Program-made: the position numbers and the translations under genes
Notes under the pieces: model-generated
What the model saw: only the letters and a program-made list of their open reading frames with translations
Database searches by the model: none
What the model was told of the DNA's origin: nothing
From: a virus
Reading direction: 5' to 3' (one strand)
Length of the DNA stretch: 22,230 nucleotides
IMG/VR virus record: IMGVR_UViG_3300021437_000091
Span: 1-22,230 of that record
Shown here: one piece after another, positions 1,086 through 16,926 of the stretch
Layout: each line of letters opens with the position of its first letter
Position numbering within the stretch: the stretch's first letter is position 1

Positions 1086-4000
1086 GCGGCCAGACCATCA
1101 GCACCAGCGAGACGCGCATCGAGGCGCTCACGCTGCAAAGCAGTTCCTACGGCGTCGTCATCCCCAAGGTCTACGGCGTGTGCCGCATCCCCGGCAATCT
1201 GCTGTGGTACGGGGGGTTCAAGGCCGTCCCGCACACCACCACGCAGGGCGGCAAGGGCGGCGGCGTCAAGACGCAGAGCACCTCTTACACCTACACCGCC
1301 AGCGTGCTGATGGGCCTGTGCCGCGGGCCCATCCTCAATGTGCGCACCGTCTGGCGCGGCAAGAACAAATTCAGCACCGGCTACTTTCCGGGCCAGGTGC
1401 AGACCGCCACGGACGTCTGCACCGTCTCCGGCGGCCTGCAGTACACGGTGGCGAATGCCAGCGGGTTCCTGCAGGTGCAGTCGGTGCGCTACACCTACTA
1501 CGACCAGGTGACGTCGGGCGTCATCGCGCGCCAGGCCACCATGGCCAATGGCCGCGACTACACGGTGTCCGCGGCCGGCGTGCTGACCTTCGCCGCGCAG
1601 TTCGCCGGCAAGTCGGTGAGCATCGAATACCAGTACGCCACCGGCTCCCCCACGGCGCCACCGCTCGGGCTGACCCTGGCGGCCGGCAATATCGGCCAGG
1701 CCACCTGGTCCCCGCTGACCACGTTCACGCCCACGGGCGGCGCGGCCGGCGACAACGCGGTGGGCTACAGCGGGCTGGCCTACGTGGCCGCCGCCGACTA
1801 CGACCTGGGCAGCGGTGCCCAGATCGAGAACCATACTTTCGAGGTGCAGGGGGCCATGGCCTACCACCTGGGCAGCAGCGTGCCGGACGTCGACCCCACC
1901 AAGGTGCTGCTGGACCTGCTGTGCGACTCCACGGCCGGCGCCTCATTCCCGCCGACGATGCTGGACATCTGGGCCGACTGGAGCAGCTTCTGCCTGGCGA
2001 ATGGCCTGCTGGTGAGCCCGGCGCTGACCGAGCAGCAACGCGCCTCGGACATCGTGGCCACCATGGCCAGGCTGACCAACACCGGCCCCGTGTGGAGCGC
2101 CGGCCGGCTGCTGATGGTGCCCTACAGCGACGACGCGGCCAGCGGCAACGGCGCCACCTTCACGCCCAGCCTGGCACCGGTCTATGACCTGGACGATGAC
2201 TGCTGGCTGTCCAGCGGCAGCGACGCCCCGCTGCGGGCCAAGTCCAAGACGCCGGCCGACCGCTACAACCACGTGCGCGTGGAGTACCTGGACCGCGACA
2301 ACCAGTACAACCCCACCATCGCCGAAGCCAAGGACCAGGCGGACATCGACGCGTTCGGCCTGCGCTCCATGGAGATCGTCAGCGCGCACTGGGTGTGCAC
2401 CGTGGCCGCCGCCCGCCAGGTGGCCCAGCTGCTGGTGCAGCGCAGCCTGAACGTCGTCAGCGAGTACTACGCCACGCTGCCGTGGCATTTCGCGCTGCTC
2501 GAGCCCATGGACCTGGTCACGCTCACCGACACCGCGCTCGGCTTGTCGCGGCAGCTCGTGCGCATCACCACCATCGAGGAATCCGAGAACGGCGACCTGG
2601 CCATGACCTTCGAGGACGCCTCGGCCGCGGCGGCTGCGGCCGTCTATGCGGCGCAGGCCCCGGCGGGCTACCAGGCCGACTACAACGCCAGCCCGGGCAA
2701 TGCCGACACGCCCGTCATCTTCGAGGCGCCGGCAGACTGGAGCAGCACCGGCGTCATGCTGCTGGTGGCCGCGCGCGGCACCACCGCGATGTGGGGCGGC
2801 TGCCAGGTGTGGGTGAGCCTGGACGGCAGCAACTACCGCAAGATCGGCACCGTGTACGGCGGCGCGCGCTATGGCACGCTCAGCGCCGGGGCCAGCGGCG
2901 GCGCCAGCACCATCGCCGTGCAGGGCCTGGGCACGCAGCAACTGCTGTCGGGCAGCGCGGCGGATGCCGCCAAGCTGTCGACCCTATGCTACGTCGGCGG
3001 CTCGAACCCGGAGTACCTGGCCTACTGGACGGCCACCTACACCGGCAGCTCCGGCGCCAATGCCTACACCCTGGGCGGCCTGGTGCACGCCGCCTACGGC
3101 ACCGCGGCCGGCGCGCACAGCAGCGGCGACACATTCGTGCGCGTGGACAGCGACGTGGCGCGCAGCGACGAGCTGGACGTGGCCTATGTCGGCCAGACCG
3201 TCTACGTCAAGCTGCTGAGTTTCAACCTCACCGGCGGCGGCCAGCAGGGCCTGGCCGACGTGTCGCCCTACACCTACACCGTCACCGGGGCGATGGCGGC
3301 ATTGCGCCCCGGCGTCAGCGGCAAGGGGCTCACGCTGCTGGCCGACTCGATCATCTTCACCTACCCGTCCGGCGGCGGCGTCAGCCCGTCGTCGATCACG
3401 CTCACCGCGCTGCGCAAGGGGCTGCTGAGCGGCACCGTCACGTGGGCGGTCGTGGCCGGCACCGTCACGCTCGCCGGCTCGGGGGACACGCGCAGCATCG
3501 CGCCGGCGTCTATGACCACCACCACCGCCACCATCAGCGCCACCATCACCGACGCGGTGGGCACCTACACCGACTACGTGACCATCACCAAGGTGGTCGA
3601 CGGCGCGGCCGGCCTGCAGACCGCGACGGTGATGATCTACAAGCGCGCTGCGTCGGCGCCCGCCCTGCCGTCGGCCACGGCCACCTACACCTTTGCCACC
3701 AGTGCGCTGACCGGCCTGAACAACGGCTGGACCACCTCGGTGCCGGCGGCCGACGGCAACCCCCTGTATGCGTCCGCCGCCACCGCCAGCGCCACGGGCG
3801 CCACCGACACCATCGCGGCCGGGGAATGGGCGTCCGCCGTCATCCTGGCGCAGGATGGGGCGGCCGGCGGCACCGCCGCCAGCGTCTTCATCTACCAGCG
3901 CGCCGCCTCGACGCCATCCCTTCCGTCGGCCACGGCCACCTACACCTTCGCCACCGGCGCGCTGACGGGGCTGAACAACGGCTGGGCCGCCACCGTGCCA

Positions 4001-4819
4001 TCGGGCAGCGACCCGTGCTACGTGTCGACGGCCACGGCGTTCTCTGCAGGCGCCACAGACACCATCGCCGCCGGCGAGTGGGCCGCCGCAACCGTGCTGG
4101 TGCAGGACGGTGCGGTGGGGCCGCCAGCGGCCGTGCTGAGCCTGTCCGCCGACAGCGTGACACTGGTGGCGGACTCAACCGGGTTCGTGGCCAGTTTCAC
4201 GGGCGCGGCGGCGACGGCGTCGGTGATCCTGGGCGGCACCACGGACGACACGGCCAACTGGACGATCGGCGCCACCGACAGCTCGGGCGTCACCAGCTCG
4301 CTGTCCGGCACCACCGTCAACATCGTGGCCATGTCGGCCGACACGGGCTACGTCACCGTCACCGCCAGCCGCACTGGCTACGTCACGCTCAGCAAGCGCC
4401 TCACCGTCAACAAGGTGCGCGGCGCCGGTACCACCAGCGGCCCGGTCAGCGGCGGCTACTACGCATCGGACGTGGCGCGCAGCGTTGCCTCGCATGCCGG
4501 CGTGCGGTTCGAGACCGACGGCACCGTCATGGCCAAGGATTCCGGCGGCACCTACATCACGATCGGCAACTGGTACGCGCCGACCACTACCGGCATCGGC
4601 GGCAGCTACTGGATGTACGTCACGCCCCGGTCCGGCGCCGACACACTGAACACGGGCACGCTCAACTCCTGGATCGACATGAGCAGCCACTTCGCATTCA
4701 CCTATGACCAGACGACCGTCGGCGTGAAGTACGGGGTGTTCGACTACCTGCTGTCGCTGACCAGCGGCGGCGCGACGGTGGCCACCGGCGTCATCGAAAT
4801 CAGCGTGGAGTATGCATAA
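1082..4819 (+). CDS. J-like phage tail protein (central fibre / host specificity)
   Basis: A 1245-residue protein. ATG 1082 is preferred over the in-frame upstream start at 1070 because it makes an ATGA overlap with the peptidase gene. The N-terminus (YGVVIPKVYGVCRIPGN, then WYGGFKAVPHTTTQGGKGGG) is typical of the J/TipJ/Rcc01698-like tail-tip family. About residues 1-550 form the conserved hub part. The remainder is low-complexity, Ala/Thr/Gly-rich and beta-rich, with Ig-like character and two tandem modules near residues 850-1010. The C-terminal region is probably the receptor-binding, variable part. It acts at the tail tip in adsorption and DNA ejection. Family call is confident; host range is not predictable. 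Confidence 0.88.
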   Translation: MSGQTISTSETRIEALTLQSSSYGVVIPKVYGVCRIPGNLLWYGGFKAVPHTTTQGGKGGGVKTQSTSYTYTASVLMGLCRGPILNVRTVWRGKNKFSTGYFPGQVQTATDVCTVSGGLQYTVANASGFLQVQSVRYTYYDQVTSGVIARQATMANGRDYTVSAAGVLTFAAQFAGKSVSIEYQYATGSPTAPPLGLTLAAGNIGQATWSPLTTFTPTGGAAGDNAVGYSGLAYVAAADYDLGSGAQIENHTFEVQGAMAYHLGSSVPDVDPTKVLLDLLCDSTAGASFPPTMLDIWADWSSFCLANGLLVSPALTEQQRASDIVATMARLTNTGPVWSAGRLLMVPYSDDAASGNGATFTPSLAPVYDLDDDCWLSSGSDAPLRAKSKTPADRYNHVRVEYLDRDNQYNPTIAEAKDQADIDAFGLRSMEIVSAHWVCTVAAARQVAQLLVQRSLNVVSEYYATLPWHFALLEPMDLVTLTDTALGLSRQLVRITTIEESENGDLAMTFEDASAAAAAAVYAAQAPAGYQADYNASPGNADTPVIFEAPADWSSTGVMLLVAARGTTAMWGGCQVWVSLDGSNYRKIGTVYGGARYGTLSAGASGGASTIAVQGLGTQQLLSGSAADAAKLSTLCYVGGSNPEYLAYWTATYTGSSGANAYTLGGLVHAAYGTAAGAHSSGDTFVRVDSDVARSDELDVAYVGQTVYVKLLSFNLTGGGQQGLADVSPYTYTVTGAMAALRPGVSGKGLTLLADSIIFTYPSGGGVSPSSITLTALRKGLLSGTVTWAVVAGTVTLAGSGDTRSIAPASMTTTTATISATITDAVGTYTDYVTITKVVDGAAGLQTATVMIYKRAASAPALPSATATYTFATSALTGLNNGWTTSVPAADGNPLYASAATASATGATDTIAAGEWASAVILAQDGAAGGTAASVFIYQRAASTPSLPSATATYTFATGALTGLNNGWAATVPSGSDPCYVSTATAFSAGATDTIAAGEWAAATVLVQDGAVGPPAAVLSLSADSVTLVADSTGFVASFTGAAATASVILGGTTDDTANWTIGATDSSGVTSSLSGTTVNIVAMSADTGYVTVTASRTGYVTLSKRLTVNKVRGAGTTSGPVSGGYYASDVARSVASHAGVRFETDGTVMAKDSGGTYITIGNWYAPTTTGIGGSYWMYVTPRSGADTLNTGTLNSWIDMSSHFAFTYDQTTVGVKYGVFDYLLSLTSGGATVATGVIEISVEYA
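3634..4110 (+). repeat. tandem ~255-bp repeat inside the tail protein gene
   Basis: Two copies, 255 bp (85 residues) apart and starting near 3634 and 3889, encode related modules. Each begins IYKRAAS or IYQRAAS, continues PSATATYTFATxALTGLNNGW and ends DTIAAGEWA followed by QDGA. DNA identity is high over PSATATYTFAT, so the duplication is fairly recent or kept by recombination. Such repeats in tail fibres change fibre length and are hot spots for recombination. Confidence 0.85.
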
Positions 4820-4821
4820 CC

Positions 4822-5247
4822 ATGCCAAACCAGAAGAAGTGGCCCGCAGCGGTGAAAAGGCTCTTGGTGGCAGCGCTGGTGGCGCTGGGGATCAGGTCTG
4901 CGCACGCGTTCGACCGCGATCCGCTGGACGTCCCGCTGCGGCAGTACGCGTTCCTGCTGGCCGTGGCGCTGCTGGGCGGGCTGGTGTCCTGGTATGCCAA
5001 GGTCCGCTCGGGCACCGTGCGCGCCTGGCACATCAGCACGCTGGTGGGCGAGCTGGCGACCAGCGCCTTTGCGGGGCTGGTGGCGTTCTGGCTGTGCACC
5101 GCAGCCACCGTGCCGCCGATGGTGACCGCCGCGCTGGTGGGCGTGGCCGGGCACATGGGCACGCGCGCCATCGTGCTGCTGGAGCACTGGGCAGAGCGCC
5201 GGTTTGGCGGCCGGGACATGGCGCCTGAGCAGGAGCGGGGGCCATGA
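4822..5247 (+). CDS. LydA-type phage holin
   Basis: A 141-residue membrane protein just downstream of the tail protein stop. The hydrophobic segments near residues 41-58 (YAFLLAVALLGGLVSWY), 74-95 (VGELATSAFAGLVAFWLC) and 98-117 fit the three-helix LydA/holin-3 family, whose members contain GELATSAFAG and ALVGVAGHMG-like signatures. A short basic N-terminus precedes a possible additional hydrophobic stretch (residues 14-29). It would form inner-membrane lesions for lysis. No endolysin is seen next to it in this window, so the lysin must lie elsewhere or be absent. Confidence 0.85.
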   Translation: MPNQKKWPAAVKRLLVAALVALGIRSAHAFDRDPLDVPLRQYAFLLAVALLGGLVSWYAKVRSGTVRAWHISTLVGELATSAFAGLVAFWLCTAATVPPMVTAALVGVAGHMGTRAIVLLEHWAERRFGGRDMAPEQERGP

Positions 5248-5483
5248 ACGCGGCGGCCTGGGAGCACATGCACGACCGCGAAGAGGCGCAGGCCGTGGCG
5301 TGGATGGTGCGCGTCCCGGGGCGGCCCGAGGCGCGCTTCGTCAGCTTCGACCGCGGGCATGCGGAGCACTACGCGACGCGGATGCATGGGACGATTCATC
5401 CGCTCGGCGAGCTGCCGGTAAAGGCCGCTGCGGCTTCTAACGGCCCCGAAGCCGCCCCAGGCGCGCGGTCTGTGGACAACTGA
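5244..5483 (+). CDS. small phage protein of unknown function, end of late operon
   Basis: A 79-residue protein starting at ATG 5244 in an ATGA overlap with the holin stop, which supports it as a real coupled gene. The sequence is soluble and His/Arg/Glu-rich at the N-terminus (EHMHDREEAQAVAWMVRV), with no motif I recognise. It is the last plus-strand gene of the late operon. Its stop lies 6 bases before the first integron-type core site of the accessory array, so the original 3' end may have been altered by cassette insertion. Confidence 0.7.
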   Translation: MNAAAWEHMHDREEAQAVAWMVRVPGRPEARFVSFDRGHAEHYATRMHGTIHPLGELPVKAAAASNGPEAAPGARSVDN

Positions 5484-5498
5484 TCCGCGGGTTAGGCC
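5435..5498 (-). other. terminal half attC (site f) at the array/phage boundary
   Basis: Plus-strand GTTAGGCCCC at 5489-5498 is the left core box (GGGGCCTAAC on the minus strand) that closes the three-gene cassette: it is an exact complement of that cassette's start at 6493-6502. A possible partner, GTTAGAA (minus, 5441-5435), lies 61 bp away, the right distance for a short attC, but it fails the last position of GTTRRRY. The sequence between does not fold into the stem seen at the other sites. The internal part of this attC is probably lost or replaced by phage sequence. Confidence 0.55.
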
Positions 5499-5799
5499 CC
5501 AATGCCTTGCGCAGCGCATCTACGTGCTCGTCCATCAGCCCGTTCGGGTCCCATACGCCGCCGCGCACCACGGTCCACGCGATCACACAGCGTTGGGCAG
5601 CTCGGCGCCACTGCTCGACTTCGGCTTTCGCTTCGGCCAACGATTGAGCCAGCTTCGCCACATTCGCGGCTGCAGCATCGGAAACAACGGCGTCGGCCAT
5701 GATGCGGCGGCGCAGTCTTGCGTTCTCTCGGTGCAGGTGCAACAGCCTCTTCTGAGCGGCTTGCGCGCTTACCTTGACCATGATGTCTCCGTCAGCCAT
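5437..5799 (-). CDS. hypothetical coiled-coil cassette protein
   Basis: A 120-residue protein starting at ATG 5799, preceded by GGAGG with the TGA of the upstream gene overlapping the ribosome-binding region. Residues 12-70 are Ala/Glu/Lys/Arg-rich with heptad-like spacing and are probably a coiled coil. WDPNGLMDEHVDALRKALG then follows. The C-terminus is read through the left core box of site f, and the TAG lies in the putative right box, so the last ~20 residues may not be native. Third gene of a three-gene cassette; function unknown. Confidence 0.6.
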   Translation of the reverse strand: MADGDIMVKVSAQAAQKRLLHLHRENARLRRRIMADAVVSDAAAANVAKLAQSLAEAKAEVEQWRRAAQRCVIAWTVVRGGVWDPNGLMDEHVDALRKALGPNPRISCPQTARLGRLRGR

Positions 5800-5802
5800 G
5801 TG

Positions 5803-6129
5803 TCAACCTCCAATGCCCAGCTTGCGCTGAAGCAGTCGCGCGAACTCGTGATGCACTTCGTCTGCGTATGGGTCGGCGTTCGCCGCGTCCCACAGTTCTT
5901 CCACGTCCAGCGGGTCCAGCGGGTGCAGGGGCGTCGCGTAGTGCTCTGCCGCCTTGCTCCAGGTGTGCGCCTCGCGCTTCAGTGCCGCGTTCTCTGCCTC
6001 CAGCGCGGCCAGTCGCTCAGCGGTCAATGGAAACCACTTCTCCAGGCTGCTGTTCTCGCGCCACTGGCGGCCAATCTCGGCATCGTCCGGGCCAGCCTCG
6101 CCGTAGGCGTGCATGTTCGGGTCGTCCAT
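5803..6129 (-). CDS. hypothetical cassette protein
   Basis: A 108-residue acidic protein starting at ATG 6129 behind AAGGAAG. It begins MDDPNMHAYGEAG, has a Leu/Glu/Ala-rich helical stretch (LTAERLAALEAENAALKREA, residues 36-55) likely to form a coiled coil, and ends with a helical segment (FARLLQRKLG). Ser/Asp-rich N-termini like this occur in small phage early proteins, but I do not recognise a family. Second gene of the three-gene cassette; only 3 bases separate it from the next gene. Confidence 0.6.
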   Translation of the reverse strand: MDDPNMHAYGEAGPDDAEIGRQWRENSSLEKWFPLTAERLAALEAENAALKREAHTWSKAAEHYATPLHPLDPLDVEELWDAANADPYADEVHHEFARLLQRKLGIGG

Positions 6130-6146
6130 CTGTCAAGTCTTCCTTG

Positions 6147-6470
6147 TCAGTTCGCCAAGTCGGCGGCCACCAGCACAATCGCGCGCCTCGTGGCGGCTGT
6201 CGGGTCAGCGCCCCACGGTACGTCGCGCGCGGCCACGTCGCTGTCAAACGCCAGCGCGGTCACGGTCACGCACCCCTCGGTCACCATCTGCCCGATGTCC
6301 ATCTCCAGCGCCACGGCCAGCTCCAGCGCCTGGCCACTGTCGGTCAGCGGGTTCCATTGCCGAAAAGACCCCGGCCCATCGTCGCCGTGCGTCAGCAACA
6401 CGTCGTCCTCCAGCCAGTAGTAAATGCCGGCCGCCCGTGCAGCTCGTTCGAGCAGTGTCTTGTCGTCCAT
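6147..6470 (-). CDS. hypothetical phage-type protein (WNPLTDSG motif)
   Basis: A 107-residue protein starting at ATG 6470 behind GAGAAGG. The FRQWNPLTDSGQALELAVALEMDI stretch (residues about 37-60) resembles a recurrent motif in small phage early proteins (WNPL-D-GDALRLAVKL type), whose role is unknown. It is the first gene of the cassette that opens at GTTAGGC (6502-6496, minus). Its ATG is not in phase with the GTT crossover codon, unlike the other cassettes, and it has its own ribosome-binding site. Confidence 0.65.
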   Translation of the reverse strand: MDDKTLLERAARAAGIYYWLEDDVLLTHGDDGPGSFRQWNPLTDSGQALELAVALEMDIGQMVTEGCVTVTALAFDSDVAARDVPWGADPTAATRRAIVLVAADLAN

Positions 6471-6507
6471 AGTCCTTCTCGCTCCGGATACAGGGGCCTA
6501 ACCCGTC

Positions 6508-6515
6508 GCTCGAAC
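6508..6515. repeat. 8-bp target site duplication, left copy
   Basis: GCTCGAAC here is repeated exactly at 9124-9131, immediately outside the two ends of the ISL3-family element. Eight base pairs is the usual duplication length of the ISL3 family. Confidence 0.85.
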
Positions 6516-6540
6516 GGCTCTCCGGATTTCCATGTTGAAA
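6516..6540 (+). repeat. left terminal inverted repeat of the ISL3-family element
   Basis: GGCTCTCCGGATTTCC followed by ATGTTGAAA. The outer GGCTC and CGGATT blocks match the right end; the region between and inside them has diverged. It reads directly into the leader of the first passenger gene. Confidence 0.75.
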
Positions 6541-6592
6541 CGTCCATGATGGTTTATAGTCTGAAAACGGATTAACGTGTGGAAAGTAGACC

Positions 6593-6997
6593 ATGATTGA
6601 CCTGATGCAAGACCCCAAGCGCCCCTCCACTTTCATTGCCAACACGGGTGGCGAGACACCGGCTGAGCAGGTGCTGCGGAAGTTGGCGTGCTGGCTTGGA
6701 GCTGGTGGGTACAACGCCCCGACGGTTGATGCCGACGTGTTCCACGACAAGATCATCTGGGGCATAGGTGAGCTTGTTCAGGAGACGAACAGGCTTCAGC
6801 TTGAGGTTCATCGCTACCGAGACGCCTGGAACACCCAACGCCAGATCAACGAACTGATCAGACCCTCGTTCACGCACGAGGAGGTCATGAACGCGATGCA
6901 CGAGGCAGAAGTCCCGGACGGCCCCTTCAAGCTGATGCTGATGATCATGGACACCATCCGCGCCGACCGAGCTGCGGACATGGGCGACGGTGGTTGA
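6593..6997 (+). CDS. hypothetical passenger protein of the ISL3-family element
   Basis: A 134-residue protein starting at ATG 6593, with GGAAAG 7 bases upstream. The N-terminus reads MIDLMQDPKRPSTFIANTGG. The middle is helical (IGELVQETNRLQLEVHRYRDAW, near residues 57-78), and a second helical part includes THEEVMNAMHEAE. No known family recognised; the composition fits small phage or mobile-element proteins. First of three genes in tight order ahead of the transposase, so it probably shares its transcript. Confidence 0.65.
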   Translation: MIDLMQDPKRPSTFIANTGGETPAEQVLRKLACWLGAGGYNAPTVDADVFHDKIIWGIGELVQETNRLQLEVHRYRDAWNTQRQINELIRPSFTHEEVMNAMHEAEVPDGPFKLMLMIMDTIRADRAADMGDGG

Positions 6998-7036
6998 GCC
7001 ATGCCCTCGAACGACATTGAACCAAAGGAGATGACG

Positions 7037-7300
7037 ATGGAACGCGAGCAGGTTTGGGGCGTGGCAGTGATGGCGCCGAAGCAGAAGGAGGCCGCGCAGA
7101 AACACTGCTTCGGCGACTGCGGGAAGATCAGCATGGCAGGCGCCATCAACGACGAGGTGACCGGTGGCTTGTTCGTCTGCTGCCAGCCGACGTGCCCCTA
7201 CGAAGGGACCGTGATCCCGAACTACGGCGAGACGATGAGCTTTGGTCGCCCGCACACCGTGCACCTGCGCCTGCTGGAGCCGGTTGGAGAAGGCGCATGA
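7037..7300 (+). CDS. hypothetical Cys-rich passenger protein
   Basis: An 87-residue protein. I place the start at ATG 7037 rather than 7001 or 7031 because AAAGGAG (7024-7030) lies 6 bases before it. The sequence begins MEREQVWGVAVMAPKQKEAA and has Cys pairs HCFGDC and VCCQPTC about 28 residues apart, consistent with a small zinc-binding fold. The stop overlaps the next ATG as ATGA. No family recognised; function unknown. Confidence 0.6.
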   Translation: MEREQVWGVAVMAPKQKEAAQKHCFGDCGKISMAGAINDEVTGGLFVCCQPTCPYEGTVIPNYGETMSFGRPHTVHLRLLEPVGEGA

Positions 7301-7707
7301 GCGCCAGCAACTGGCGGCAGGGAGTGTGCGAGCGGGTGTCACTGCGAATCAACCGCGGGCTGAACGGCGGCGATTGCCCTGGTGCTGGCGCACTCGGCGA
7401 GTGCCCAGCCGTGTATGAGATGAGCCACGACGATGACGATGCAGGCGCCTCGTTCACGGCGGAGGTGTACCTGGCAACCCGTGCGCAACGCTTCACGGCG
7501 GCGACGCTGGCCGAGTGGATAGAAGCCTGCGGCGGCATTGAGCCTTGCATCAGCCATGTGATTCACGATCCTTACAACGGGACGGCTGATGGGGTCTGTT
7601 GCGACGGAGCGCGCCATTGGCGGGCGGAATTCCGGGTCGAACGCGACAAGCAGCCCACGTCTGCACCAGACGTGAGCCTGAATCGACAATCGGTGAATGA
7701 CCACTGA
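7297..7707 (+). CDS. hypothetical passenger protein ahead of the transposase
   Basis: A 136-residue protein starting at ATG 7297 in an ATGA overlap with the previous stop. It contains several Cys (GVCERV, GDCPGAGALGECPAVY, EACGGIEPC, GVCCDG) and an acidic DDDDAG run. The stop at 7707 overlaps the transposase start (7697) by 11 bases, so translation of the transposase is probably coupled to this gene. I do not recognise the family. Position and overlap argue for a regulatory or accessory role in the element, but that is inference only. Confidence 0.6.
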   Translation: MSASNWRQGVCERVSLRINRGLNGGDCPGAGALGECPAVYEMSHDDDDAGASFTAEVYLATRAQRFTAATLAEWIEACGGIEPCISHVIHDPYNGTADGVCCDGARHWRAEFRVERDKQPTSAPDVSLNRQSVNDH

Positions 7708-9112
7708 CATCCTCGACCTTCACGGGTGGACCGTCCTTGCAAAGCGCCTCGAAGACCGTGAGTACGAGCTTGAAGCTGAGTACACCGTCAAGCCCACCGC
7801 CTGCCAGAAGTGCGGCGTGCTGGATCGGCTGTACCGGCACGGCACCAAGGACACCATCTACCGTGACAGCCCCATCAGGGGCCACGCAACCCGCATCCTG
7901 GCCCGCGTGCAGCGGTACAAGTGCCGGGAGTGCGGCGAGACGTTCCTGCAGCCCCTGGCGGGCATCCAGGAGGACCGCCGCATGACTGCCAGGTGCGCCG
8001 AGTACATCAAGGAGCAGTGCCTCCGCGACACCTTCACCAGCATCGCTGACCACGTTGGTTGTGACGACAAGACCGTGCGCAACCTGGCAGGCGAGTACAT
8101 CGCCACGCTGGACGCCGCCTACAAGCCTTCCCTGCCGGCCTGGCTGGGCATCGACGAGACGCAGATCGACGGGAAGATGCGCTGCGTCATCACCGACATC
8201 GGCGGCCGGCGCCCCATCGAGATGCTGGCCGACCGGGACAAGGGCACCCTGACCACCTGGCTGCACCGGCACAAGGAGCGCAAGCACGTCGAGGGCGTGG
8301 CCATCGACATGTGGCGCCCGTACCGCGACGTAGCCGGCACGATCTTCCCGGGCGTGCCGGTCGTGATCGACAAGTTCCACGTCGTGCGAATGGCGAACTA
8401 CTGCATGGAGCGCGTGCGCATCCGGGTGGCCAAGACCCGCACCAAGGAGGTCCGGCGCGACTGGATGCGCTCCAAGGCCATCCTGAACAAGCGCGAGTCC
8501 ACCCTGACCGAGAAGCAGCGGTTCAACCTCGACATGTGGCTGGCCAACGAACCCGAGCTGGCCGACGCCTACCGGCTCAAGGAGAGCTTCTACGGCATCT
8601 ACGGCATGAAGAAGCCGCAGGCTCTGGCCGCCTATGACGCCTTCAAGGGCGACGTCCCCCAGGCGCTCAAGGCCGACTTCAAGGTGCTGCTGACCGCGAT
8701 GCGCAACTGGCGCCCGGAGATCACCGCCTACTTCGACCACCCGATCAGCAACGCCTACACCGAGGCACTGAATGGGGTGGCCAAGACGATCAACCGTGCT
8801 GGCCGGGGCTACAGCTTCGAGGTGCTGCGAGCGCGGCTGCTGTTCGGTTCCAAGCCCCGAATACAACCACCAAAGGAGACACCCATCATGACCCGTGGTG
8901 AACAAGCACTGCAGCGCGCCCAACTCCTCAGGGCAGGGAATGGACGGTGCCAGTCGTGCAGCGGAGCGTTTGAACCGGCCTCGCTGTTCGTCCACCTGAC
9001 CCCTGCCGTGGTCCCTGGCGAACATCGAAAGCCGATGCTTCTCTGCCAGAACTGCCACAGACGATTCCACACGGATGAACTCAGCGGTCATGCCTCAGAT
9101 TCCACACACTAA
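7697..9112 (+). CDS. ISL3-family transposase with C-terminal HNH-like zinc module
   Basis: A 471-residue protein. It has an N-terminal zinc ribbon (C36-x2-C39, C76-x2-C79), a helix-turn-helix near 110-132, then the DDE catalytic core with D153 in GIDETQID, D225 in VVIDKFHVVR and E356 in NAYTEALNG. This is the ISL3 (DDE_Tnp_ISL3) order. The transposase part ends near residue 385. Residues about 398-471 form a second module: CQSC (418-421), VHLTP (H433), LLCQNCHRRFH (C450, C453, H454, H458), an HNH-nuclease-like zinc knuckle in which the usual first D/H metal ligand before H433 is Val. ATG 8888 (M398) has its own AAAGGAGA 8-14 bases upstream, so the module may also be made separately. The protein excises and inserts the element. 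Confidence 0.88.
   Translation: MTTDILDLHGWTVLAKRLEDREYELEAEYTVKPTACQKCGVLDRLYRHGTKDTIYRDSPIRGHATRILARVQRYKCRECGETFLQPLAGIQEDRRMTARCAEYIKEQCLRDTFTSIADHVGCDDKTVRNLAGEYIATLDAAYKPSLPAWLGIDETQIDGKMRCVITDIGGRRPIEMLADRDKGTLTTWLHRHKERKHVEGVAIDMWRPYRDVAGTIFPGVPVVIDKFHVVRMANYCMERVRIRVAKTRTKEVRRDWMRSKAILNKRESTLTEKQRFNLDMWLANEPELADAYRLKESFYGIYGMKKPQALAAYDAFKGDVPQALKADFKVLLTAMRNWRPEITAYFDHPISNAYTEALNGVAKTINRAGRGYSFEVLRARLLFGSKPRIQPPKETPIMTRGEQALQRAQLLRAGNGRCQSCSGAFEPASLFVHLTPAVVPGEHRKPMLLCQNCHRRFHTDELSGHASDSTH
8888..9112 (+). CDS. possible internally initiated HNH-like protein, 74 aa
   Basis: In-frame ATG 8888 within the transposase gene is preceded by AAAGGAGA at 8872-8879, a strong ribosome-binding site. 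The product would be MTRGEQALQRAQLLRAGNG followed by the CQSC...LLCQNCHRRFH zinc module. HNH proteins often begin with an R-L-G/N-x-C-pattern before the first CxxC, so this looks like an originally free-standing gene that became joined in frame to the transposase. Whether it is translated on its own is unknown. Confidence 0.4.
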   Translation: MTRGEQALQRAQLLRAGNGRCQSCSGAFEPASLFVHLTPAVVPGEHRKPMLLCQNCHRRFHTDELSGHASDSTH

Positions 9113-9123
9113 TCCGTTGAGCC
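9099..9123 (-). repeat. right terminal inverted repeat of the ISL3-family element
   Basis: On the minus strand the end begins GGCTCAACGGATTAGTGTG. It shares GGCTC and CGGATT with the left end. The transposase stop codon (9110-9112) lies inside it. Confidence 0.75.
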
Positions 9124-9131
9124 GCTCGAAC
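9124..9131. repeat. 8-bp target site duplication, right copy
   Basis: Exact copy of GCTCGAAC at 6508-6515. It covers the end of the attC right arm and the start of the spacer to the right core box, so the insertion cut the attC between its stem and its crossover site. Confidence 0.85.
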
Positions 9132-9138
9132 GGACGGC

Positions 9139-9540
9139 CTACGGCCGCCGTTCAGCTCCCACGTTGGGCGGCTCGCTGTTCGCCAGTTTCAAAAGCACGG
9201 CCGCGTGGCAGGCGTCATCCTCGTATGGCCCAGGGCGCTTGCACCAGCAGGCCAGGTTCTTGCCGCGCAGCTCGGCACGGGCGGCAGCCACCAGCAGTGC
9301 GTTCTGTGGCGCGAATCCCAGGTAAATCTGCCAGGAGTGGCGGGCGTTTTTCGTCACCGTGCCGTAGGGGTTCGTCGCGCCCACCTTGAACGGGTTCCCC
9401 CACTTGGTCGTGCGATCAACCTTCACGGTGTTGGGTGGCATTTTCCAGCCCTTGGCGCGGCTTAGTTGCACGCGCTCCGGCTCCAGCCGCCCAACTGGCG
9501 CATCGAGCGGACCCTCAACGGCCCCGGTGTCCTGTTCCAT
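9139..9540 (-). CDS. DUF4326 domain protein (cassette gene using an attC-borne start)
   Basis: A 133-residue protein with the DUF4326 signature: RVQLSRAKGWKMPPNTVKV then DRTTKWGNPF, and a C-terminal GKNLACWCK with CHAAVLLKLAN. The family is common in phages and mobile DNA, and its activity is unknown. The ATG at 9540 lies in the hairpin loop of attC d, 6 nt after AGGAGG (9552-9547). Residues about 5-15 (TGAVEGPLDAPVG) are encoded by the attC right arm. The domain itself starts only at residue ~22, so the extension is recombination-derived. A native GTG could be at RVQL, preceded by CCGGAGCG. The stop lies in the loop of attC e. Confidence 0.85.
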   Translation of the reverse strand: MEQDTGAVEGPLDAPVGRLEPERVQLSRAKGWKMPPNTVKVDRTTKWGNPFKVGATNPYGTVTKNARHSWQIYLGFAPQNALLVAAARAELRGKNLACWCKRPGPYEDDACHAAVLLKLANSEPPNVGAERRP

Positions 9541-9591
9541 CTTCAACCTCCTGCGCGGGCCGTTGGGGTCCGCTCATGCTTATCGTTAGGT
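9489..9591 (-). repeat. attC site d, long form, 103 bp
   Basis: Minus strand: left box ACCTAAC (9591-9585), spacer, 19-bp arm GAGCGGACCCCAACGGCCC, a ~32-nt loop, right arm identical in reverse complement except for one extra unpaired base (A on the minus strand, T9515 on the plus strand), spacer, right box GTTGGGC (9495-9489). Both boxes fit RYYYAAC/GTTRRRY. A single extrahelical base in an otherwise perfect stem is characteristic of integron attC sites, where it selects the bottom strand. Closes the methyltransferase cassette. Confidence 0.9.
9538..9552 (-). promoter_or_regulatory. Shine-Dalgarno and ATG in the loop of attC d
   Basis: AGGAGG (9552-9547), 6-nt spacer, ATG (9540-9538), all inside the unpaired loop of the attC hairpin. 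The layout is the same as in attC b. It is the only ATG with a good ribosome-binding site for the DUF4326 gene and decides its start. Confidence 0.8.
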
Positions 9592-9592
9592 T

Positions 9593-10267
9593 TCACAACA
9601 GCCCCTCTTGCACAGGCTGTCTTGGTTCTTCAGGCGGCAGTAGCGTGCCCTGGGCCTGGGCGCGGGCTATGCGCTCGCAGGCGGCATCGAAGTAGCCGCG
9701 CTCGCGCTCAATGCCAGTGAACGCCAGCCCGAGCTGTACGCACGCCACGCCAGTGCTACCGCTGCCCATGAACGGGTCCAGCACCGTCGCGGGCCTGCCG
9801 GCTTGGTCCAGGCACCACGCCATCAACGGCACCGGCTTCTGCGTCGGGTGGTAGTGCTTCCCTTCGGTCGCCAGTTGCCCGTGGCTGTAGTCGAAAACGC
9901 GGTTCGGCTTGTCCAAGTTTGTCCAGGCGTGCTCGGCTTCGCTGCTGCTCCAGTTGCGCAGGATCTTGTTCCACGACAACCAGCACCGCGAAGGCTGCAA
10001 CAGGTAGAACTGTCCTCCCCACACCACGGCATGTTCGGCTTTTGTCAGCGCCAGTTCCACGCCGTCGGCCACTATGGCGCGGTCCCACTCCGGGGCGCCG
10101 CCGTAGTAGTGCTTCCCCCAGCCGCTTTTGCCAGGCCGGTGCAGGTGCTCATACACGCCATAGGGCGGGTCTGTCACCACTGCAGCAAAACGCGGCAGCA
10201 GCGGCAGCACCTCGCGGCAGTCGCCGTGCCACAGTTCCGCGTTGCCGATCACCACTTTCTCTGCCAT
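9593..10267 (-). CDS. orphan DNA methyltransferase (beta-class, N6-adenine or N4-cytosine)
   Basis: A 224-residue protein. ATG 10267 is preferred because GAAAGG lies 5-10 nt upstream; the adjacent ATG 10270 is too close. It has motif IV DPPYG at residues 33-37 (adenine/cytosine amino-methyltransferase active site) before motif I-type DPFMGSGSTG at 164-173 (S-adenosylmethionine binding), the beta-class order. HPTQKP (about 142) precedes it. No restriction endonuclease is adjacent, so it probably protects phage DNA or acts in regulation. It is a single-gene cassette. The stop TGA (9595-9593) overlaps the extended left box of attC d. The frame is open in phase from the GTT crossover codon to its own start. 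Confidence 0.92.
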   Translation of the reverse strand: MAEKVVIGNAELWHGDCREVLPLLPRFAAVVTDPPYGVYEHLHRPGKSGWGKHYYGGAPEWDRAIVADGVELALTKAEHAVVWGGQFYLLQPSRCWLSWNKILRNWSSSEAEHAWTNLDKPNRVFDYSHGQLATEGKHYHPTQKPVPLMAWCLDQAGRPATVLDPFMGSGSTGVACVQLGLAFTGIERERGYFDAACERIARAQAQGTLLPPEEPRQPVQEGLL

Positions 10268-10293
10268 CATCACCTTTCGTTGCGCCGAGTGAA

Positions 10294-10353
10294 ACCTAAC
10301 CTGTCCATCAAGCGGACCAGCCTTCGGCCGGCCGCTTATGTCCAACGTTGTGC
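10294..10353 (-). repeat. attC site c, short form, 60 bp
   Basis: Minus strand: left box GCACAAC (10353-10347), 9-nt spacer, AAGCGG-CCGGCC, loop GAA, GGCTGG-T-CCGCTT (one unpaired T, one G-T pair), 9-nt spacer, right box GTTAGGT (10300-10294). The right box fits GTTRRRY; the left box deviates at one position. The 60-bp size and shape match short attC sites such as that of aadA cassettes. It closes the 95/105-aa cassette; the TGA of the 105-aa gene is in its right arm. Confidence 0.9.
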
Positions 10354-10625
10354 CGCTCGCGCACTGCCACCGCCGTCACTTCGGCCCAGTCGGCGGTCAA
10401 GGCGGCGAGCATTTCGGTCAGCTCTTCGCGCGTGATGGTGACCATCACAAACGACTCGCCAGGGTGGCCGCCCGACTCATCGCCGCGCACGTCTGCTGGC
10501 CGAACAAGAAGTTGCACTGCGTTCGTCATCGTCACGCCGTCTTTGCATTCCCAAAGGCACATGCTGCAGGCGGCAATGGCAGGGTCAACGAACGAGTCAT
10601 CTCCCAGGGTTGGTGTGGCGCTCAC
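10308..10625 (-). CDS. hypothetical cassette protein, 105 aa
   Basis: Starts at GTG 10625 in a GTGA overlap with the stop of the upstream gene. Begins (M)SATPTLGDDSFVDPAI, has a Cys cluster CSMCLWEC near residues 20-27, then VTITREELTEMLAALTADW. The last ~15 residues (HNVGHKRPAEGWSA) are encoded by the left arm, loop and right arm of attC c, and the stop is in the attC, as often seen for cassette genes. An alternative start is ATG at MTNAVQLL. Function unknown. Confidence 0.65.
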   Translation of the reverse strand: MSATPTLGDDSFVDPAIAACSMCLWECKDGVTMTNAVQLLVRPADVRGDESGGHPGESFVMVTITREELTEMLAALTADWAEVTAVAVRERHNVGHKRPAEGWSA

Positions 10626-10909
10626 GTCAGTGCCTCCCCATGCACAAGCACCGCGCGGCAGAACGCGCGCAGTTCGTCGGCCGTGCACAGTAGCGAGTCA
10701 ACACCCATCGGCGCACACTCGCCGATCAGTTCGTCAATGGCCGTAGTGCCAATGCCGTCCTCGGCCAGTGCAAGCGCCTCGGCCTCGTGCCACGGCATGC
10801 CCGTCTGCTCGTGCAACAGCTCGGCGCGCGCCAGCCATCCGCGCTTCGGAACCAGCGGCACAACTGACGGTTCGAGCGGACCCTCAACGGCCCGGCTACT
10901 TTGTCCCAT
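10622..10909 (-). CDS. hypothetical cassette protein, 95 aa (attC-borne start)
   Basis: ATG 10909 lies in the loop of attC b, 6 nt after AGGAGG (10921-10916). Residues about 4-18 (SSRAVEGPLEPSVVP) are encoded by the attC right arm and crossover site, followed by cassette-borne sequence LVPKRGWLARAELLHEQTG. The core is MPWHEAEALALAEDGIGTTAIDEL in two parts, followed by a Cys-containing C-terminal helix region. GTG within the GTTGTGCC crossover box could be an internal native start. The start overlaps the end of the DUF551 gene by 14 nt. Function unknown. Confidence 0.65.
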   Translation of the reverse strand: MGQSSRAVEGPLEPSVVPLVPKRGWLARAELLHEQTGMPWHEAEALALAEDGIGTTAIDELIGECAPMGVDSLLCTADELRAFCRAVLVHGEALT

Positions 10910-10959
10910 CTTCCACCTCCTGTGCGGGCCGTTGGGGTCCGCTCAACCTAGCGTTAGGG
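10858..10959 (-). repeat. attC site b, long form, 102 bp
   Basis: Minus strand: left box CCCTAAC (10959-10953), spacer, 19-bp arm GAGCGGACCCCAACGGCCC (10944-10926), ~32-nt loop, right arm 10893-10874 perfectly complementary apart from one extra base (T10884 on the plus strand), spacer, right box GTTGTGC (10864-10858). Both boxes keep AAC and GTT but each misses the consensus at one or two positions. The stem is identical to that of attC d, so the two sites share ancestry. Closes the XF1762-DUF551 cassette. Confidence 0.88.
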
Positions 10960-11210
10960 CGCTTGAGCACTAGCACGGGTGCTGGTGGCGACGGCTGCCA
11001 GAACCACGCATCTACCGCCAGCCCCGGAACGCTGAAACTGGCAAGCCCCGCTCCGTCTTCGCCGCCGCTCCTGTACCGCCCGCCCAATACTCGACCGTTC
11101 AGGTAGCCCATCGGCAGCAGCTGGTCAACGCGAACCACGAAAAGCACATCCTGGCCGTCCCTTGGCAAGCGTTCGGCGCAGTCAATCCAATCTCCGAGAT
11201 CGTCGTTCAT
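10896..11210 (-). CDS. DUF551-like protein
   Basis: A 104-residue protein. ATG 11210 is chosen because it makes an ATGA overlap with the XF1762 stop. The sequence DWIDCAERLPRDGQDVLFVV near the N-terminus and WFWQPSPPAP downstream follow the DUF551 pattern (W-S-xx-RLPxxGxxVL ... W-xPLPxxP), a small domain common in phage early regions, function unknown. The last ~20 residues (ARLSGPQRPAQEVEDGTK) are encoded by attC b's left arm and loop, hence not family-conserved. Second gene of its cassette. Confidence 0.8.
   Translation of the reverse strand: MNDDLGDWIDCAERLPRDGQDVLFVVRVDQLLPMGYLNGRVLGGRYRSGGEDGAGLASFSVPGLAVDAWFWQPSPPAPVLVLKRPNARLSGPQRPAQEVEDGTK
10907..10921 (-). promoter_or_regulatory. 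Shine-Dalgarno and ATG in the loop of attC b
   Basis: AGGAGG (10921-10916), 6-nt spacer, ATG (10909-10907) in the hairpin loop. The DUF551 reading frame terminates (TAG 10898-10896) 9 nt beyond this ATG, so termination and initiation occur in the same loop. Confidence 0.8.
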
Positions 11211-11785
11211 CCAACCCATCTCCATTTGCCGCCCACAAGGTCATCGCCTACGGGTTCAACAGTGCGTCCCGGCCGGCTGTGCCACATCGCGGCGCTTCCG
11301 CCAGCGTCCTCTTTGTCAAGCCTGAATCCAGCGGCGCGCAAGCTGGCGCCGCCTTCCTCGGGCAGCGTGTAGGTGTAGATCGGCGTGTAACCCATCGCTC
11401 GCGCGGCCTTGCGCGCAGCGCCGTAGAGCATGCTGCAAGCGTTGCGCGTGCCATCGGCACACAGGCGGGTCACTTCGGCGGCCTTGCCGTTGTCCAGTCG
11501 CGGGGCTACGGGTCGGCCAACAATCGCCACGCCTACCAGCGCCCAGGCTTCTCCATTCGCAGCCCGCGTGCAGGCTTCCACGCCCACCGCGAACTTGTGC
11601 CCCACCACCGGGCGGCTGTGGCGGTGCCGCTGGCGCACAAACTCGTTCGCGGTCTTCAGGTCACACGGCACCACACGCAGCAGCGGCGCGCCACCGTCCG
11701 CGCGCTCCGGCACCAGCGCCCTAACACGCAGGTCGAGGCGAGGCCCAACGGCCTCGCGCACCTGTGGGTGTGGCTGCTGGGTCAT
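11207..11785 (-). CDS. XF1762-family protein (GNAT-like fold suspected)
   Basis: A 192-residue protein with the family hallmarks: FVRQRHRHSRPVVGHKFAVG, then VGVAIVGRPVAPRLDNG, VTRLCADGTRNACSMLYGAA, and YTLPEEGGASLRAAGF. XF1762-family proteins are frequent in phages; the AAxxxAxxxGYxxIxTYT pattern resembles acetyltransferases, but no activity is established. The ATG 11785 lies in the loop of attC a, in an ATGA overlap with the stop of the 114-aa gene. Residues 1-36 are attC- and cassette-leader-encoded; the conserved domain begins near LRVVPCDLKTAN. First gene of its cassette. Confidence 0.88.
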   Translation of the reverse strand: MTQQPHPQVREAVGPRLDLRVRALVPERADGGAPLLRVVPCDLKTANEFVRQRHRHSRPVVGHKFAVGVEACTRAANGEAWALVGVAIVGRPVAPRLDNGKAAEVTRLCADGTRNACSMLYGAARKAARAMGYTPIYTYTLPEEGGASLRAAGFRLDKEDAGGSAAMWHSRPGRTVEPVGDDLVGGKWRWVG

Positions 11786-11818
11786 GGCCGTTGGTCCCGC
11801 CTCACCAGCACGTTGGGC
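11719..11818 (-). repeat. attC site a, long form, 100 bp
   Basis: Minus strand: left box GCCCAAC (11818-11812), spacer, arm GAGGCGGGACCAACGGCC, ~32-nt loop, arm that pairs with one unpaired base and two mismatches, spacer, right box GTTAGGG (11725-11719). The left box fits RYYYAAC; the right box misses the final Y. The stem shares its inner AACGGCC/GGCCGTT with attC b and d. Its left flank is identical over 17 nt (GCGAGCCGCCCAACGTG) to attC e. It is the first site of the array in gene direction; no matching cassette start is found upstream. Confidence 0.82.
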
Positions 11819-12126
11819 GGCTCGCGACGCACCCAGACCGGGCGCGGCGTCGTGCAGTCGCATGTAGCCAGGGCCATCGCGCACGACTCGCAGAAGTTCA
11901 GCAACTGGCGCGCGGCCACGCGGCCCGCTTCAGTCACCGTAAAAATGGGGTCGCCGCCGGAAAGTGGGTGCCCGTCGCGGCGCGTCATCAGCCCCTCGGC
12001 CACCAACGCCTGGCAGTGCGGGTAATCCGTGCTGCCGGGGCCGGTCACGAAGTGGTTGCGGTATTCGCGGTTGCTTCGGCCCAGGCCCAGTGCGTGCCGC
12101 AGGATGTCTTGCTGTTCGATATTCAT
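11782..12126 (-). CDS. hypothetical phage early protein, 114 aa
   Basis: Starts at ATG 12126, 2 nt after the stop of the ParB-like gene. Sequence EQQDILRHALGLGRSNREYR, then NHFVTGPGSTDYPHCQALV and GLMTRRDGHPLSGGDPIFTVTEAGR resembles a small protein I have seen repeatedly in betaproteobacterial prophage early regions (function unknown; winged-helix-like C-terminal pattern). CESCAMALATCDC could bind metal. The last ~15 residues and TGA are encoded by attC a's left arm and loop, so this gene sits at the joint between phage operon and cassette array: either the first cassette gene or a phage gene with an attC joined to its 3' end. Confidence 0.78.
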   Translation of the reverse strand: MNIEQQDILRHALGLGRSNREYRNHFVTGPGSTDYPHCQALVAEGLMTRRDGHPLSGGDPIFTVTEAGRVAARQLLNFCESCAMALATCDCTTPRPVWVRREPPNVLVRRDQRP

Positions 12127-12128
12127 GG

Positions 12129-13090
12129 TCAGTAGGTGCCTTCCTGCGCAAACGGGTGCGGGCGGGCCTCTTCTTCGACCATCTCGCCGGCGCAGCCGGC
12201 TTCGTCCGTCTGTTCTTCGCCGGCGCCGGCCGGCGATGCGCCGCCCGCTTGTGACGGGTCAAGCGCGGCCGATGCCTCGTCATCTTCCGCGCCCGCGCCA
12301 GCGGATGCTGTGGCGCGGTCGGCGCGCCAGGCCGCCATCACCGCGTTCGCGTCGATGCCGTAGTGGTTGGCCAGGGCCAGCAGCGGGCCAGGCTTCGTGT
12401 GCAGGCTGTAGGTGTGCACGCGCACGTCGTCGACGATGGCGCAGTCCATCACCAGGGCGGTGAGCTGCACCACGTCCATGTGGTCGATCTGGCGCTTCAG
12501 CGCCTCGACATCCTTCAGGCCGTGCAACAGGGCGAGGAAGCTCTTGTCGTGCCAGTCCACGCCCGATAGCGCCGCGGCGGCCACCAGGCGCAAGTCGAAG
12601 GCGTCGCGGGCCCGTTGCGCGGCCACCTGGCGCACGTGCATCAGCAGCGCGGTGCGGCGCGAGGTTTCCTCTTTCGCCCTGGCTTCCACGGCCGCGCGTT
12701 TCCTCGCGTCCGCCTCTTGCTGCGCCTTGTGGGCATCACCTTGGGGCAGGTCTTCCTTCTTCGCCAGGCCGGCGGCCACCAGGTCGGCGCGGGCGACGGC
12801 CTGCACGGTCTGGCCGGTGCGCTGGTCCTGGATCAGCACCACCTGCGGCGCCGGCGCGCCGGCCTTCTTGGCCTGCTTCTTGAGCACCGCCTTTACCTTG
12901 CTCAGCTCGAGGTAGGCGCCCTTCACGGCGCCGTGCGCGCTGAGCGACGCGCGGGCCTTGTTGCCGGTGATGACCACCTTGCCGGCGGCCTGCAGCGCCG
13001 CGGCCTCGCGCGCCAGGTGGCCTGACGCTTGGCGTCGTCGGGGTCGATGGCCGGGCCGGCGCGGCGGAAGTCGCGGTTCTTGGCGGGCAT
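12129..13090 (-). pseudogene. ParB/RepB-like protein lacking its N-terminal half, with a frameshift
   Basis: ATG 13090 with AGGAG 8 nt upstream, right after the kinase stop, opens MPAKNRDFRRAGPAIDPDDA, but this frame soon leaves the coding phase. From about 13020 the -1/+2 frame continues as HLAREAAALQAAGKVVITGN and runs to TGA at 12131-12129. One missing base near 13015-13025 explains it. The downstream part has the C-terminal half of phage/plasmid ParB proteins: VVLIQDQRTGQTVQAV, and LLALANHYGIDANAVMAAW. The N-terminal ParB nuclease/HTH domains are absent, giving about 320 residues if repaired. It may be a decayed gene, a sequencing error, or a natural C-domain-only protein. Confidence 0.7.
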
Positions 13091-13092
13091 GA

Positions 13093-13650
13093 TCAGGCTC
13101 TCCTCAGGCTGTCGACCAGGCGGTCCACCTGGTCGAACAGGGTGGCTTGGCTGCCGAAGTTCAGCAGCTCGGTGGTGACGGTCAGATGGTCGCTGTGCGA
13201 CTCACTGACATGCGGGCGCGCCTGGGGCGTGATGTCGCGCACCACGCGCACCAGCACGCCGCCGCGGGCCTGCAGCCATTCGGCCTCGTTGGGGAAGCGC
13301 ACATCGCTGACGACGATGTTCTCCGTCTGCAGGTGCGGCGCCGCCAGGCGCAGGCTGGCCACGCGCAACCAGAAGTCGGGCGCCAGGCTGCGCCCCCACT
13401 CGGTGCCCAGCGTCTGCGCGAGCTGGCGGTAGCTGAAGCCCAGCGCTGTGGGCTGTTCTTTCAGGGCGCGCTCGACCATCCAGGCGCCGTCGATGTCGGC
13501 ATCGGCGAACAGGGCGCCGATCATGTTGACGATGGGGTCGGCCATCGCGATCTCGACGAAGGCGAACTCGCGCTCCAGGTACGCGGCCACGGTGGACTTG
13601 CCGGCGCCGGCGCGGCCGGTCAGGCCGACGAGCAGGGGCGCGGTGGTCAT
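13093..13650 (-). CDS. deoxynucleoside monophosphate kinase (phage type)
   Basis: A 185-residue P-loop kinase. The Walker A GLTGRAGAGKST is at residues 8-19. FVEIAMADPIVNMIGALF and FSYRQLAQTLGTEWGR follow, with a VSDVRFPNEAEWL strand characteristic of phage dNMP kinases (T4 gene 1-like group). The family phosphorylates dNMPs to dNDPs to support phage DNA synthesis in the cytoplasm. The start ATG 13650 overlaps the upstream stop as ATGA. It is in the leftward early operon, in line with a replication-supply role. Confidence 0.88.
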   Translation of the reverse strand: MTTAPLLVGLTGRAGAGKSTVAAYLEREFAFVEIAMADPIVNMIGALFADADIDGAWMVERALKEQPTALGFSYRQLAQTLGTEWGRSLAPDFWLRVASLRLAAPHLQTENIVVSDVRFPNEAEWLQARGGVLVRVVRDITPQARPHVSESHSDHLTVTTELLNFGSQATLFDQVDRLVDSLRRA

Positions 13651-14048
13651 GCCGCCAGCGCCTGCGGGGTGGCCGCGGTGGCCGTGGTAACCGTTGCAGC
13701 GGGGGGCGCCGGCCACCAGGTGTGCAGCGCCTTGGCCAGCAGCGCGGTGCGGAAGGCGTCGCCCGCGTGGTACAGGCCGCGCAGCGTGTAGAACACCAGG
13801 CCTGGGTGGTCGCGCGCCTCCAGGCGCTTCATGTCCAGCTCGATCTCGCTGGCCAGGTGGCGCACGTCGAAGATCACCCACGCCAGGCCCTCGTGCCGGG
13901 TGGCGCGCAGGAAGTGGTGCAGGTAGCCGTCGACGGCCACCGGGTGCAGGCCGATGGCGCTGCCGTCGCGGAACATCACTTCGCAGCGCTGGGCCTGCAC
14001 GGTGTAGCGGTCGCTGTGCGCGATGGCGCGTGTGTCTGGGAGGAACAT
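13647..14048 (-). CDS. hypothetical early protein, 133 aa
   Basis: ATG 14048 with TAGGAG about 9 nt upstream; the longer open frame extending to 14894 in the same phase is not used because it covers three other genes. The product begins MFLPDTRAIAHSDRYTVQAQ and contains FLRATRHEGLAWVIFDVRHL and LVFYTLRGLYHAGDAFRTAL, then an Ala/Thr/Pro tail. No family recognised. The stop overlaps the kinase start by 4 bases. Confidence 0.72.
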   Translation of the reverse strand: MFLPDTRAIAHSDRYTVQAQRCEVMFRDGSAIGLHPVAVDGYLHHFLRATRHEGLAWVIFDVRHLASEIELDMKRLEARDHPGLVFYTLRGLYHAGDAFRTALLAKALHTWWPAPPAATVTTATAATPQALAA

Positions 14049-14058
14049 GCTCGGGCTC

Positions 14059-14487: not shown

Positions 14488-14500
14488 GGCGTGGCGCGGC

Positions 14501-14764
14501 TCAGCCCAAACGCAGCAGGCCCAGGCGCACGGCGGCCCACAGGGCCACGCCGGCCAGCGCCACGCCCGCCAGCAGGCCGTAGCCCAGGCCCACGAGCCAG
14601 CCGCGGGCGCGGGCGCCGCGCTGGCCGGTGTCGTAGCCGTCGCTCCAGGCGTTGTGCACGGCCTGGGCCAGGCGCTCGTCGGGGTGGCGCGGTTGCACGG
14701 GTGCAGGCGTCCGCACGGCAGTGACGCGGCGGCCGCTGATCAGGCGCAGGTCGGGGCCGCTCAT
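14501..14764 (-). CDS. small single-pass membrane protein, 87 aa
   Basis: A basic, soluble N-terminus (MSGPDLRLISGRRVTAV) is followed by one C-terminal hydrophobic segment at about residues 55-84 (WLVGLGYGLLAGVALAGVAL). The ATG overlaps the previous stop in ATGA. Likely an inner-membrane early protein; superinfection or host-takeover roles are possible but there is no motif to support one. Confidence 0.68.
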   Translation of the reverse strand: MSGPDLRLISGRRVTAVRTPAPVQPRHPDERLAQAVHNAWSDGYDTGQRGARARGWLVGLGYGLLAGVALAGVALWAAVRLGLLRLG

Positions 14765-15209: not shown

Positions 15210-15229
15210 GGGGCCCTCCTGGGGATGGC

Positions 15230-16879: not shown

Positions 16880-16926
16880 GCGCCCGCCCTTGCAGTTGTC
16901 TCCTCCCGGCTGATGGCCGTGGGTTC

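Follow-up and report, generated by a model that had tools for sequence, protein, structure and literature searches.

The array of genes at 5491-11821 of the window (the whole 22,230-bp virus record analysed here, probably a fragment) is a real integron gene-cassette array (CALIN) of a phage-adapted variant, and it very probably belongs to a phage integron that is resident in a group of temperate tailed phages. Integrons are gene-collecting systems of bacteria, which stockpile defence genes in them. What appears to be new here is a phage-adapted lineage with an integrase clade, an attI and a fixed slot, in which the cassettes are reversed and the recombination sites appear also to start translation. 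If this is true, phages have their own system of modular gene exchange, and its cargo is counter-defence.

Table 1. Features of the window, in order of position
Feature	Coordinates	Strand	Remarks
Tail genes (tail assembly, minor tail and tail tip protein)	97-4819	+
Holin	4822-5247	+	Convergent late region, adjoining the array end
Array end, right core box GTTAGGCCCC	5491-5500	+	Own-end partner of 6493-6502; without attC hairpin
Cassette unit 1	5491-6502	-	Three minus-strand ORFs (5437-5799, 5803-6129, 6147-6470), without Pfam match
attC BC, left part	6493-6516	+	Final 10 nt are the target-site duplication (TSD)
Insertion	6517-9122	+	ISL3-family transposase (7697-9112) and three plus-strand ORFs; imperfect TIRs, 10-bp TSD
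attC BC, right part	9123-9172	+	Forms a full attC with 6493-6516
Cassette unit 2	9163-9495	-	DUF4326 protein (ORF 9139-9546), start inside the loop of its own attC D
attC D	9486-9594	+	Minus-strand loop AGGAGGT-TGAAG-ATG
Cassette unit 3	9585-10300	-	N6/N4 DNA methyltransferase (9593-10264)
attC E	10291-10356	+	Short form; top strand is plus
Cassette unit 4	10347-10864	-	ORFs 10308-10688 and 10622-10909, without Pfam match; 10622-10909 starts in attC F
attC F	10855-10962	+	Minus-strand loop AGGAGGTGGAAG-ATG; upstream ORF ends within the loop, stop and start overlapping
Cassette unit 5	10953-11725	-	Mom-like DNA-modification protein (11207-11788), start in attC G; DUF551-like ORF (10896-11225)
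attC G	11716-11821	+	Operon-proximal array end
Phage early operon	11782-16040	-	Upstream of the array; includes deoxynucleotide monophosphate kinase (DNMK, 13093-13650); syntenic with intI-bearing relatives

Cassette units and attC sites of the window

The first 10 bases of each unit from GTT were compared with the box at its own far end. In all five units the two boxes are exact reverse complements (10/10 nt; pairs 5491/6502, 9163/9495, 9585/10300, 10347/10864 and 10953/11725), whereas the facing boxes of one site match at only 5-7 of 10 positions. Among 120 permutations, the full own-end score of 50/50 is reached solely by the true pairing. The initial annotation had described five minus-strand units obeying this own-end rule and bounded by attC-like sites. 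The rule itself is borne out, and attC sites do lie between the cassettes, but units 1 and 2 are separated by a single attC that an insertion has split, and the left end at 5491 is a right box alone.

The hallmarks of attC, namely RYYYAAC / GTTRRRY cores, arms that form a palindrome and an additional base in one of them, are present at BC (interrupted) as well as at D, E, F and G. Before the insertion the array thus comprised five consecutive attC (BC, D, E, F and G), ending at 5491 in the lone core box. Three sites are about 110 nt long and the others shorter; the hairpins are imperfect, those of D, F and G folding as long ones. Folding, which had been proposed as a check, gives bottom-strand z scores of about -5 for F and G but only -1.3 for the short site E, and an Rfam search of the window gave no attC match. 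The gene at 11782-12126 is not bounded as a cassette, since there is no matching left box to the right of G. The right box GTTGGGCGGC is common to sites G (11812-11821) and BC (9163-9172). Elsewhere in the window, 16897-16959 on the plus strand has a weak Rfam match to a toxic small RNA of Betaproteobacteria (25.5 bits against a gathering threshold of 50, E 0.23).

A transposon-like insertion of the ISL3 family, which did not belong to the ancestral array, makes up the 6.5-9.1 kb stretch. Its 2,606 bp split one attC and are flanked by a 10-bp TSD, CGCTCGAACG, with imperfect TIRs; joining the flanks restores an ordinary attC of about 60 nt. The frame of the transposase runs on into an HNH-like CxxC...CxxCH tail (RCQSC...CQNCHRRFH).

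Direction of the cassette genes

An extra base in one attC arm is the mark that separates the top from the bottom strand. In every window site the plus-strand arm left of the loop carries at least one extra base, so that across the array the plus strand is the canonical attC top strand; this corrects the initial annotation, which had named it the bottom strand and had not noticed the inversion that follows from it. All cassette genes outside the insertion lie on the minus strand, opposite to it; they are inverted relative to attC, each being preceded by its own attC and not followed by it.

To what extent is this inversion a property of phages? Collections of virus and bacterial genomes were scanned with one identical 16-base attC motif, and loci from two other cassette proteins were added. 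A stem-based caller with a codon-usage model finds 215 inverted and 9 canonical cassettes in viruses (215/224), as against 119 canonical and 16 inverted in bacterial genomes (119/135). A motif-only test, which sets the motif strand against the nearest gene, gives 144 sense to 2 antisense in virus contigs and 27 sense to 150 antisense in bacterial genomes (Fisher P ~1e-60, for loci that are related by descent and thus not fully independent). The bacterial sense-oriented loci are mostly chance motif matches without attC arrays; the canonical exceptions among the virus cassettes number 9-10. Three bacterial-genome contigs that do have sense-oriented attC arrays (L274, L286 and L296) may be prophages with phage-type integrons.

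Two possible artefacts were considered. Query bias as the source of the contrast is countered by the use of the same motif in both collections, and a phage extra base placed in the opposite arm, which would mimic an inversion, is opposed both by the polarity of the breakpoints and by the intI/attI geometry.

Cassette movement in related phages

A search with the Mom-like protein found 20 virus loci, several with attC arrays of their own; in most of these loci the Mom homology begins only past the attC-coded part. Where near-identical cassettes lie in different neighbourhoods (L050/L069, L022/L050 and L011/L346), the identity runs from the YYYAA^C upstream of the gene and takes in the upstream attC. 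At the 3' end it stops at the next YYYAA^C in four of the five pairs examined, and the downstream attC is excluded. These breakpoints fit the inversion and thus lend it support that does not depend on the extra base. Against this simple picture, three breaks lie at the opposite (GTT) box. Two pairs of near-identical genes (L022/L050 and L068/L215) that break at the GTT box also differ in their attC arms, which simple IntI polarity does not explain.

Units in related phages therefore move as cassettes with core-box boundaries; the window's own units are tied to this movement by homology alone, through the Mom unit. The interpretation of the units as cassettes is upheld in these other phages by the core-box boundaries, the differing neighbours and the arrays that end at attI beside a genuine intI. 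The boundaries and neighbours likewise contradict the scenario put forward as a refutation, that homologous phages carry the same genes in the same order with hairpins that are ordinary repeats.

The phage IntI, attI and the slot of the array

The window contains no intI, and nothing in it, including the array end at 5491, matches the phage attI of its relatives. The initial annotation had suggested that intI be sought beyond the array, and it is indeed present in related phages. In L011, a contig whose helicase-primase is similar to that of the window, a full IntI scoring 479 bits (cut-off 265) lies downstream of inverted cassettes on the same strand. IntI-specific features, in score and motifs, are present in the relatives, and relatives of the L011 IntI occur at 61 virus loci. 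A ParB-like protein and an SSB directly follow intI in L011 (13343-15705), and the SSB could affect the folding of single-stranded attC.

All visible arrays are upstream of intI. The top strand of their attC is the one opposite to intI, which is also the arrangement in bacteria, but their genes are codirectional with intI (10/10 in L396, 4/4 in L385 and 3/3 in L370). In contrast to these phage contigs, a bacterial isolate contig, L389, has mostly canonical cassettes. In a tree of 87 IntI sequences, 38 viral ones form a single all-viral clade with support of 100/98, a claim whose breadth is limited by bacterial sampling from approximately one class; a few other viral IntI are placed among the bacterial ones.

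A conserved attI, beginning AACTTAAATTCnACGACA, lies directly before intI in these phages. A scan for this motif gave 23 stretches and 11 pairs in which the attI side is 91-100% identical and the cassette side unrelated, with the switch at AA^C. Identical attI beside unrelated cassettes, switching exactly at YYYAA^C, implies recent insertion and is the clearest evidence for it.

The setting of the array is that of a phage genome, with genes for tail, holin, neck and helicase-primase proteins on the contig. In the window, DNMK is followed by two genes, the array, and finally the convergent genes for holin and tail. The corresponding slot of related contigs contains an array, the conserved attI, intI and phage integrase, and then convergent lysis and tail genes; the integrase past intI is a phage tyrosine integrase, and one contig also carries a terminase. 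The gene order thus places the window array in its relatives' slot, with the recombinases missing. In G050, where the helicase-primase and DNMK match those of the window at 55% and 64% and further proteins also match, DNMK is followed by about nine attC and intI; then come one excisionase-like and one integrase-like gene, both called by eye from sequence and place. L390 and L385 have DNMK, array, intI and a further gene, which in L385 is a phage integrase. The proposal that the array forms part of a phage early operon is supported by the DNMK operon upstream of it and by its synteny with intI-bearing relatives. The virus assignments are of metagenome contigs, mostly incomplete. A search for the long attC arms of the window as an exact pattern gave no virus contig, one with a phage-core protein yielded no relatives, and megablast against phages and plasmids gave no matches.

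Are such arrays simply fragments of bacterial chromosomal integrons, picked up by chance and without phage adaptation, as in the Vibrio anguillarum phages? The likely host group is integron-rich (89 of 229 genomes above the cut-off) and the same attC motif is found in its bacteria. Fragments of this origin, however, should keep the canonical gene direction of bacteria, and in the phages it is the opposite. The clade of 38 viral IntI and the fixed slot beside the phage integrase likewise argue against chance pick-up, as do the start signals of phage attC loops, which are absent from bacterial ones, and we regard this explanation as very improbable.

A phage-resident integron leaves room for two states of the window array. 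It may be a dead remnant, in which intI has been lost, exchange has ended and the array is kept for its expressed genes: intI, attI and phage integrase are missing where relatives carry them, and one attC is disrupted by the insertion. The own-end boxes are nevertheless still perfect in 5/5 units, and an IntI of the host or of a co-resident phage could act in trans, so that we consider a dead remnant plausible but not quite probable. The array would otherwise be one that is mobilised by such an IntI.

Translation signals within attC

Read on the minus strand, the loops of D and F contain AGGAGGT followed, after a short spacer, by ATG. Three proteins, namely DUF4326, the small 10622-10909 protein and the Mom-like one, have their starts within their own attC; they use the same frame and have similar attC-coded leaders. 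The stop of ORF 10896-11225 falls within the F loop, a few bases past the next start; such overlap of stop and start is a usual sign of translational coupling and suggests it here. Among 350 unique attC of inverted virus cassettes, a strong Shine-Dalgarno sequence with a start codon is found in the loop of 61 in sense orientation and of 3 in antisense orientation, as against 1 sense and 5 antisense in 226 canonical bacterial attC. The attC-internal start occurs in only about one third of the long sites and is rare in short ones.

The many sites with a Shine-Dalgarno sequence and ATG in the loop, between the genes of an operon, would also be expected if the hairpins were regulatory or coding repeats of the phage, acting as translation-coupling modules and merely resembling attC. 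Such repeats, however, explain neither the own-end rule nor the intI and attI at the array end, nor a sequence switch exactly at the core box, and they are contradicted by the attI breakpoints. We consider this reading extremely unlikely.

The initial annotation had proposed that the phage promoter could replace the integron Pc promoter. The layout suggests that the phage operon promoter would take over this role; no consensus promoter and no sigma-70-like match was found in the array, by scans of a kind that misses many promoters.

Cassette cargo

Of the 139 virus cassette proteins, many are DNA methyltransferases or Mom-like proteins, although the counts of both are inflated by the use of those proteins as queries. 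The anti-defence families Tad3, Tad2-like and Acb2/Tad1-like are also present, and in G050 the two cassettes nearest to intI are a Tad2-like one and one with a sub-threshold Acb2/Tad1-like match. DNA modification and counter-defence make up most of the cargo, so that the array is most likely an exchangeable counter-defence store. The attI motif together with inverted attC provides a sequence signature for finding new anti-defence genes.

A proposed mode of operation

The phage-resident integron would sit where the early operon ends and the late genes are about to begin. In complete relatives its own IntI is encoded immediately behind the array, and an excisionase-like gene, a phage integrase or both come next. 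Circular cassettes are inserted at the attI just before intI, as the breakpoints show, with IntI as the presumed catalyst, and cassettes, intI and phage integrase, which by their gene order read one way, may be transcribed as one operon. Each gene has its own attC upstream, the loop in about one third of the long sites offering a Shine-Dalgarno sequence and start codon, so that a cassette could arrive with its own translation start. We infer the steps of transcription, translation and catalysis from the anatomy.

A wider proposal, on which we are evenly divided, is that of a separate phage integron world, in which the phage IntI lineage swaps inverted cassettes among phages at the early-operon attI. 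Through the inversion, the recombinogenic attC bottom strand would lie on the non-template strand, where it could be exposed by early transcription, which would tie exchange to infection. Phage and bacterial pools would be kept apart, the cassettes of each being backwards in the other's array, attC would serve as a portable translation start, and counter-defence would be stockpiled. With a phage-adapted lineage, both the shuffling of phage accessory genes and the mixing of phage and host cassette pools become testable.

Comparison with known integrons

The initial annotation called phage-borne cassette arrays rarely described. Phage examples have been taken for occasional fragments; attC clusters in phages have been published, together with a few integrons (TJE1, PH101, P12002L and Vibrio anguillarum phages), and recombination with IntI1 was seen for 5 of the 6 phage attC tested there (Qi et al. 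2023, PMC9892861). Those arrays resemble the present ones in their attC and, in some, methyltransferase genes, and differ in being host-integron fragments or integrase-less clusters; that of TJE1 has canonical orientation in our scan. A search confined to the open-access literature gave no description of inverted phage arrays, of a phage IntI lineage, of a phage attI or of starts inside attC.

Sedentary chromosomal integrons of bacteria, such as the Rubrivivax arrays found here, share the attC structure, the own-end rule, the IntI and attI adjoining the array and the intI/attC geometry, whereas their cassettes are canonical (119/135) and their attC loops are without sense-strand start signals. 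Vibrio superintegrons also have antisense features within cassettes, in the form of antisense promoters (PMC11014356), but these are occasional, whereas in the present phages the orientation of the genes follows a near-universal rule. In Treponema-type integrons (PMC3607928) intI and the cassette genes again read one way; there, however, the integrase direction is atypical and the cassettes are normal, whereas the phage type combines normal intI/attI/attC geometry with inverted genes.

Virus Rctr41k (L413, KX853513.1, 4680-10055) has an IntI annotated as xerD, at least five attC with own-end matches, and canonical cassettes codirectional with intI. In this phage the arrangement resembles the Treponema-type solution and would reach the one-operon layout by another route. 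The integron of Rctr41k has gone unrecognised in a public phage record.
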